64,000 bases of DNA, taken from Haloarcula mannanilytica. GTDB taxonomy: Archaea; Halobacteriota; Halobacteria; Halobacteriales; Haloarculaceae. Made by a program: the position numbers and the translations under genes. Shown in pieces: positions 40,012 to 41,098 of this stretch. The first letter of the stretch is position 1. Every line of letters begins with the position of its first letter. The stretch is from positions 558,001 to 622,000 of the forward strand of contig NZ_BIXZ01000001.1 of assembly GCF_005406125.1 (NCBI RefSeq), written 5' to 3'. The notes under the pieces are model-generated. The model had not been told where the DNA came from. It worked only from the letters and a program-made list of their open reading frames with translations, and did no database searches.

Positions 40012-40142
40012 ACGTCAGCCTTAGGTGTGCGACCGGCGAACTACGGATGCGTGCCTTTAATCCCCGGCTGAGACCCGTTACTGGGACGATGACGACCCGG
40101 AGAACCCGGGCACGCGACATGACCGCGGTTCACACCGCACCC

Positions 40143-40162
40143 GGTCGCCGGATACGGCGACC
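40143..40162. repeat. Perfect 8-base hairpin in the gap before the IS element
   Basis: GGTCGCCG-GATA-CGGCGACC, a strong GC stem with a 4-base loop, about 130 bases after the flavoprotein stop. It could end or process that transcript. The remaining gap (40012-40266) has only an Arg-rich, unlikely reading frame. Confidence 0.45.
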
Positions 40163-40266
40163 CGCCCGGCACGAGGGTTTGCCGGCTGACATGGCACACC
40201 GCCGAGGATGATGCCGGACGTTAGTGTTCCGGGCGTACATTTCAGATACAATAGTAGAATTATTTG

Positions 40267-40274
40267 AAAATAAT
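40267..40274. repeat. Target-site duplication, left copy
   Basis: AAAATAAT directly precedes the left terminal inverted repeat and is repeated exactly at 41091-41098 after the right one. Eight-base duplications are typical of the ISH1-like part of the IS5 family. Confidence 0.8.
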
Positions 40275-40326
40275 GGCTCTGTTGAAATCCTCAGAGAGTT
40301 ACAGGTTCGCCCGATAGTTTGACTGA

Positions 40327-40746
40327 ATGCAGGCCCTCCGAAAGTCGCAGCTCCTCGTAGACACGAGGTCGAACGCAATCATCGACTTACACGTGACGAC
40401 GACCCGAAAACACGACTCACAGATCGCACCGTCGCTCATGAAGCGGAATACCGATGACGTAGAGATTCCCCTCGGTGACAAGGGATATGACGACCAGAAG
40501 ATTCGCGCGTTAGCCCGCGAAGATGGTGTTCGTCCGGTCATCAAGCACCGAGAATTTTCGCCGCTCCACAAGGCGTGGAACTCCCAGTTGGACGCCGACC
40601 TCTATGGGCAACGTAGTCAGAACGAGATAGTAAAGTCTCGCATTAAACGGAAATATGGCGCATTCGTCCGCTCACGACTCTGGTGAAAGCAGTTCCGTGA
40701 ACTCGTTGTCGCCTGTCTCACTCACAATATCGACAGGGCACTCTGA
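40327..40746 (+). pseudogene. IS5-family transposase, internally deleted and interrupted
   Basis: The frame starts with the typical MQALRKS opening, then jumps directly to LLVDTRSNAIIDLHVTTTRK, so roughly the first half of the DDE domain, including the first catalytic Asp region, is missing without loss of frame. The second half keeps DKGYDDQKIRALARE and the helix SQNEIVKSRIKRKYG with the catalytic Glu. A TGA at 40684-40686 replaces what is usually a tryptophan codon; the frame continues KQFRELVVACLTHNIDRAL to a second stop at 40744. It cannot be active. Confidence 0.82.
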
Positions 40747-40767
40747 ACGTTCTACAGAGCTGGCACG

Positions 40768-40971
40768 CTAATCAGGCCGTCGGGATTGTACGACTGTTGC
40801 GACTCCAGAGATAACGAGAAGCAGGCTACCACCAATTGCAACCAAATTAACTGGTCTGTTTTGTATCTCTGGCCCAAGTGGGTTCTGAAATGCCCCAGTA
40901 ATTCCGAGAAGAGCAAGACCGACTGCGCCAAGAATGAGAGCTCCTATCCCCCACTTGAATTGGTCATTCAT
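40768..40971 (-). CDS. Two-helix membrane protein carried inside the IS element
   Basis: A 67-residue protein: MNDQFKWGIGALILGAVGLA opens helix 1 (about 8-28), a short loop (QNPLGPEIQNRPVN), then helix 2 (about 43-62, LVAIGGSLLLVISGVAT) and a basic end. It is a plausible small membrane protein of unknown function. A TATA-like TTTTTATTTATC lies about 28 bases upstream on the minus strand, still inside the element, so it should be expressed from its own promoter wherever the element lands. Base composition is more AT-rich than neighbouring genes. Confidence 0.6.
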   Translation of the reverse strand: MNDQFKWGIGALILGAVGLALLGITGAFQNPLGPEIQNRPVNLVAIGGSLLLVISGVATVVQSRRPD

Positions 40972-41090
40972 ACTCGGGAAATGCTATCGGATAAATAAAA
41001 AGCTGTGCCAGAGTCGGCGATCGGTTCGCAGTTCTACCCAACAACTGCATAGCGGGATAGGTGTCGATTCACTAGGACTTCAACAGAGCC

Positions 41091-41098
41091 AAAATAAT
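41091..41098. repeat. Target-site duplication, right copy
   Basis: AAAATAAT, identical to 40267-40274, directly follows the right terminal inverted repeat. Confidence 0.8.

Follow-up and report, generated by a model that had tools for sequence, protein, structure and literature searches.

An internally deleted IS5-type element with a membrane-protein gene in Haloarcula mannanilytica, a probable relic of a cargo-carrying haloarchaeal transposon

The name transporter IS, or tIS, is given to insertion sequences with passenger genes which have no part in transposition (PMC3129680, PMC7986276). In the IS6 family a passenger has been described in a single member (PMC7986276). MITEs and mobile insertion cassettes have also been named in this literature (PMC3129680), and cargo is found in Tn7-like transposons (PMC8649781). 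The element described here can be compared with all of these systems. It shares with the IS5 family (NCBIfam NF033579, transpos_IS5_2) a DDE transposase of about 273 amino acids, ends of the GGCTCTGTTGAA type and an 8-bp target duplication. ISHla2 and ISHxa2 are the ISfinder names found on annotated relatives.

The window we have analyzed is a stretch of 64,000 nt from H. mannanilytica (contig NZ_BIXZ01000001.1, positions 558,001 to 622,000). The features of the element are collected in Table 1. Its terminal inverted repeats match in 16 of 17 positions and are bounded by an exact target duplication, both of which had been read correctly in an initial annotation made from the sequence alone. 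The 17-mer end is found without mismatches at only two sites in the 4.2-Mb genome, which are the two ends of the element; five further sites appear at 2 mismatches, and none with a reversed control pattern. There is a single copy of the 816-bp element in the host genome. An Rfam search at the element locus gave no match.

Table 1. Features of the element in the window (positions refer to the window).
Feature	Position	Strand	Remarks
Target duplication, 8 bp, left copy, AAAATAAT	40267..40274		
Whole element, 816 bp	40275..41090		Very probably a copy of an IS5-type cargo element of ~1,220 bp, with an internal deletion
Left terminal inverted repeat, GGCTCTGTTGAAATCCT	40275..40291	+	
Transposase remnant ORF	40327..40686	+	Residues 1-10 joined in frame to residue 145 onward; TGG to TGA at 40684-40686
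Transposase frame beyond the nonsense codon, up to the original stop TGA	40687..40746	+	Match to residue 273 through TGA
Cargo slot	40760..41024		From ~13 nt past the original transposase stop to the right-end block, by comparison with relatives
Passenger gene, 67-aa two-helix membrane protein MNDQFKWGIG...QSRRPD	40768..40971	-	Intact, convergent to the transposase
TATA-like AT-rich box, TTTTTATTTA	40992..41001	-	Centred ~25 nt 5' of the passenger ATG
Conserved right-end block (~66 bp), including the right terminal inverted repeat	41025..41090		
Right terminal inverted repeat, GGCTCTGTTGAAGTCCT	41074..41090	-	
Target duplication, 8 bp, right copy, AAAATAAT	41091..41098		Exact match to the left copy

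The transposase ORF matches Pfam DDE_Tnp_1 (E 8.8e-11) and, when the remnant is read through the TGA, the NCBIfam IS5 transposase (1.2e-34). Against NF033579, the remnant read in this way reaches 120 bits at half length, and an intact relative 204.5 bits (cut-off 140). This 273-aa relative is our reference for the anatomy of the remnant, and comparison with it bears out the initial annotation, in which the transposase was short of its N-terminal half in frame and had a nonsense codon. The missing part includes the GIDASGF segment (residue 113), which we take to hold the first catalytic Asp. Given the loss of residues 11-144 and the TGG to TGA change, the window copy is dead in cis, with the passenger and the ends preserved.

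A full-length relative of the IS was looked for in the host, a draft assembly of 33 contigs, as the initial annotation had suggested. No cognate transposase was found there: The nearest others are mostly 32–44% identical in amino acids, and none is closer than about 44%. A draft of this kind may lack a cognate transposase which exists. The element had been described as able to spread; its present mobility is doubtful, as it is a single copy in a host with no close cognate transposase.

The opposite-strand gene proposed between the transposase and the right end, with a TATA box of its own, is indeed present as an intact ORF. Its product has two hydrophobic helices, at about residues 9–28 and 41–61. 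The distance of the TATA-like box in Table 1 from the ATG is that of leaderless haloarchaeal promoters, and the box is conserved in the copies of the passenger borne by elements and in several free copies. No significant family was found for the 67-aa protein in Pfam or NCBIfam, where matches with E 0.02–0.09 are at chance level. Among 391 Halobacteria genomes searched with the 67-aa query, homologues 69–93% identical are found across scattered genera. Some are free: In G195, G127, G282 and G138, in Haloarcula salina and in plasmids of Halobacterium salinarum (among them pHS3 from strain R1), the locus of about 10 kb around the gene is without this transposase. The similarity between free and element-borne copies starts about 85 nt 5' of the ATG and stops about 15 nt past the stop codon, which is the span to be expected if gene and promoter were captured together. 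Pairwise dN/dS values are mostly 0.13–0.6, and 29 of the 67 positions are invariant in nine sequences. The passenger is a genuine haloarchaeal gene under purifying selection, which also exists free of any IS. It is absent from the phage and IMG/VR contigs searched, and the transposase is absent from phage records. In contig scans for relatives, an alignment-based query recovered three and a single-sequence query none.

The passenger-bearing lineage has only three known copies, the window element and two of full length, so that other copies with the same ends and cargo, which the initial annotation had proposed to look for, do exist. In Haloferax gibbonsii ATCC 33959 (G112), a 1219-bp element with the same ends has both transposase and passenger intact. 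In G347, a genome from the same family as H. gibbonsii, a 1221-bp element with the same ends has an intact 273-aa transposase and a frameshifted passenger (L028:4920-5122), with a one-base insertion at codon 9; the element is otherwise intact. It mirrors the window copy: The transposase is whole and the passenger is broken. The window element is 88% identical to bases 469–1221 of the G347 element and 84% identical to bases 1–82. No matching target duplication was found in these two full-length elements, so their completeness is judged by the presence of both ends. The window element had been considered a short non-autonomous carrier of a membrane-protein gene. It does carry the gene; its lack of autonomy is very probably due to decay of an autonomous 1.22-kb element. 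We should also note a miniature of 125 bp in H. gibbonsii which has these ends (GGCTCTGTTGAAACCCT ... AGGATTTCAACAGAGCC; L025:3263-3387), about 1.6 kb from the full-length cargo element.

The membrane-protein gene is only one of many cargos found in the same slot of related elements, which the initial annotation, correct in recognizing a passenger, had not contemplated. DNA similar to the 1221-bp element is present in 246 of the 391 genomes sampled. Relatives were picked by their similarity to the full-length element, in practice to its transposase, and strict criteria were applied: an exact 8-bp duplication, at most 4 mismatches in 16 positions of the terminal repeats, and distinct transposases. 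All 51 strict elements with at least 60% transposase identity have 295–3148 bp between the transposase stop and the right end, a region which differs from element to element in nearly all relatives. At 44% identity or less, all six qualifying relatives have only 40–44 bp there. This plain IS5 type is found in the same genomes, that of the window included. About 17 of the loci examined have no right end within reach, and L068 (950 bp) and L167 (994 bp), short candidates in which cargo is missing, have no target duplications. A sister group with GGCCTTGTTGAAACCC ends, about 67–70% identical in amino acids, also has cargo (L206, 2,606 bp), and an ISHxa2-type copy in the Halopiger plasmid pHALXA01 lies inside a 2,490-bp unit. 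From these sequences, carrying cargo in a fixed slot is the rule in a large haloarchaeal IS5 clade. None of the papers covered by our literature search describes such a rule.

A much larger unit has also been detected. L204 (G130:C103) has 8,323 bp, an exact 8-bp duplication (CGTTGTGA) and 7.45 kb past the transposase. L092 and L114 lack a right end at the corresponding place, and nearly all of their cargo is matched by a part of that in L204. It looks as if L204 had recruited a more distant right end.

The cargo is very diverse. According to Pfam, elements with exact target duplications contain a PLP-dependent enzyme (L067), a histidine kinase with an HTH_10/BAT regulator (L101), a periplasmic binding protein with an FAD enzyme (L107), a glutathione S-transferase (L112), a formate/nitrite transporter (L115), DUF7344 with HalOD1 (L064), a RibD-like reductase (L066), an archaeal pilin with a PKD domain (L091), an alpha/beta hydrolase with an HTH_10 regulator (L117), SnoaL (L120), a TehB-like methyltransferase (L125), an acyl-CoA dehydrogenase with an HTH_10 regulator (L139), a redoxin (L154) and a 7TM histidine kinase (L166). 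Many other cargos are small proteins without family. Among elements which share a cargo, the dN/dS of that cargo is about 0.08–0.6. L069 and L070, which belong to two families, have an identical element of 1,304 bp, cargo included, at different duplicated target sites, and so the cargo travels with the element; L062 and L087 are a similar pair.

Regulators of the HTH_10/BAT type are a recurrent cargo (L101, L117, L122, L138, L139 and L143). Several of them adjoin another gene, and the elements which carry them have different transposases. Nested insertions are also found: The slot of L088, with the same cargo as L069, contains an IS5-type element of 940 bp with its own duplication, and that of L158 an IS66 transposase.

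The edges of the slot can be located by comparing elements with near-identical transposase modules and unrelated cargo: L097/L115 (99.8%), L065/L082 (98.2%), L087/L184 (97.7%) and L129/L130 (96.4%). In all four pairs the left breakpoint lies about 15–18 nt after the usual position of the stop, and the right breakpoint 62–66 nt from the right tip, both within a few nt. L097 and L115 extend the transposase frame, and their left break follows CTGAATACAGAGGGTG. In several sub-lineages the two edges are inverted repeats of each other (for example in L066, L069 and L162), with up to 10 of 10 positions matching in L097/L115. The edges are CTGAATACAG/CTGTATTCAG in L097 and L115, and CGTTAGATA/TACCTAACG in the main group. 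When edges are paired within their own element the score is 5.94 of 8, against 5.45 +/- 0.11 in permutations, none of which (0/5,000) is as high. Matches are 5.68 with edges of near relatives and 5.18 with those of distant ones; the test is partly confounded by relatedness, and we take the repeats as a lead only. Inverted-repeat edges are not shown by the window copy. An integron-like interpretation of the edges (GTTRRRY/RYYYAAC; GTTAGAT...ACCTAAC in the main group) was dropped: The motif is not kept in other sub-lineages or in the window copy.

We consider it very probable that the window element is what remains, after an internal deletion, of a cargo-carrying IS5 transposon from this clade of gene shuttles, and that it can no longer move. 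Its parent, of about 1.22 kb, would have had a complete 273-aa DDE transposase followed by about 15–18 nt of conserved sequence. Next would have come the slot, occupied by the convergent gene for the 67-aa membrane protein together with the promoter of that gene, and then a right end of about 65 bp. The transposase would have moved this parent, duplicating 8 bp of the target, as suggested by its family membership and by the duplications. In this Haloarcula lineage, an in-frame deletion of about 405 bp would have removed residues 11–144 of the transposase and a nonsense codon would have arisen, the ends and the passenger being spared. Transposase and ends would constitute a small gene shuttle, whose cargo gene is kept by purifying selection and would be expressed from its own promoter. 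A chance juxtaposition of an IS fragment and an ordinary chromosomal gene, with coincidental ends, is hardly credible. The passenger family does exist outside insertion sequences, but here the gene is enclosed by exact 8-bp duplications and by ends matching at 16 of 17 positions, and the same arrangement in H. gibbonsii and G347, two full-length relatives, already refutes this idea. The initial annotation had pointed out that a passenger found at the same chromosomal place in strains without the IS ends would speak against its reading. In fact, in two genomes (G106 and G051) where the two flanks of the element are syntenic and lie about 100–150 bp apart, the passenger gene is absent altogether. 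It is also very unlikely that the passenger is an accessory gene, such as a regulator, an antitoxin or a targeting factor, which the IS needs for its transposition or maintenance. Its retention in three elements 88–94% identical from three genera would favor this, but the closest relatives hold unrelated genes (enzymes, transporters), so no one gene is required; passenger homologues live without the IS, and in G347 the frameshifted passenger lies beside an intact transposase.

How the cargo of a shuttle is renewed is a separate matter. The fixed breakpoints suggest specific capture or exchange at the slot edges, or microhomology-assisted capture limited by the cis sequences which the transposase would need. 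The clade might be a cassette system, with cargo inserted and exchanged at a fixed slot marked by inverted-repeat edges through a dedicated or transposase-dependent exchange rather than by chance capture; we put this forward tentatively, as on balance it is unlikely. Alternatively, elements in the same host might recombine by homology across the transposase module and the right end which they share. This would be the only source of the diversity apart from an occasional chance capture, and the edges would simply be the places where shared sequence stops. Such an origin is possible, if somewhat unlikely. The shared arms are the only homology between elements, and five pairs have the same cargo with transposase modules only 80–88% alike (the cargo of L083/L116 is 97% identical in amino acids). 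On the other hand, L097 and L115 show no mosaic of the kind a diverged donor would leave: Their arms keep 99.8% and 100% identity as far as the two breakpoints. Nor does recombination by itself bring in new genes.

The placement of the element among known systems follows from these features. It is derived from IS5 and is neither a plain IS nor a MITE, as had been proposed initially: It matches the curated IS5 model, it has terminal repeats starting with GGCT/C and a short target duplication, and it has a coding passenger. Compactness, usual in IS5 although not strictly defining, is absent in these elements, with 295 bp to 3.1 kb after the transposase, so we have filed them as a cargo-bearing IS5 variant. 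In plain IS5 relatives the distance from stop to tip is 40–44 bp, whereas this clade has a slot of 0.3–3 kb or more. As in a tIS, a single transposase and one or more passenger genes lie between the ends, the passengers are unrelated to transposition, and they move with the element, judging by sequence only (L069/L070, L062/L087). We therefore class the element as a transporter IS; the slot for the cargo is fixed throughout the clade to which it belongs. Unlike the tIS of the IS6 family, essentially every complete member of the clade has cargo, in the same slot and with rapid turnover. The window copy resembles a MITE or a mobile insertion cassette in having both ends and no functional transposase, but its lost transposase is recognizable and it carries a coding gene: It would be a decay product and not a member of an amplified miniature family. 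MITEs are short, non-coding and multicopy, driven in trans, and here there is a coding passenger in one copy, without a close cognate transposase. Diverse cargo in nearly all members is shared with Tn7-like transposons, which are multi-gene machines, while in this clade a lone IS5-type transposase is accompanied, as a rule, by one or two cargo genes.

Haloarchaea are known for their heavy gene exchange. To our knowledge, small vehicles which move single genes between their species are poorly described. If an IS5 lineage as common as this one always has cargo and swaps it in one slot, the patchy distribution of accessory genes such as regulators, transporters and enzymes among Halobacteria would be explained in part, and archaeal genetics would gain a compact natural vector. 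Near-identical elements with different cargo and identical breakpoints are directly comparable, which makes them a testable case of an IS turning into a gene shuttle.

The DNA just to the left of the element also deserves mention. An intergenic region of the window (40136-40244) is 95–100% conserved across many genomes of the genus (85/85 in G102), and the neighboring gene is only 74–91% conserved. This region has no match in Rfam; it has the appearance of a structured RNA or a regulatory element which has not been described.
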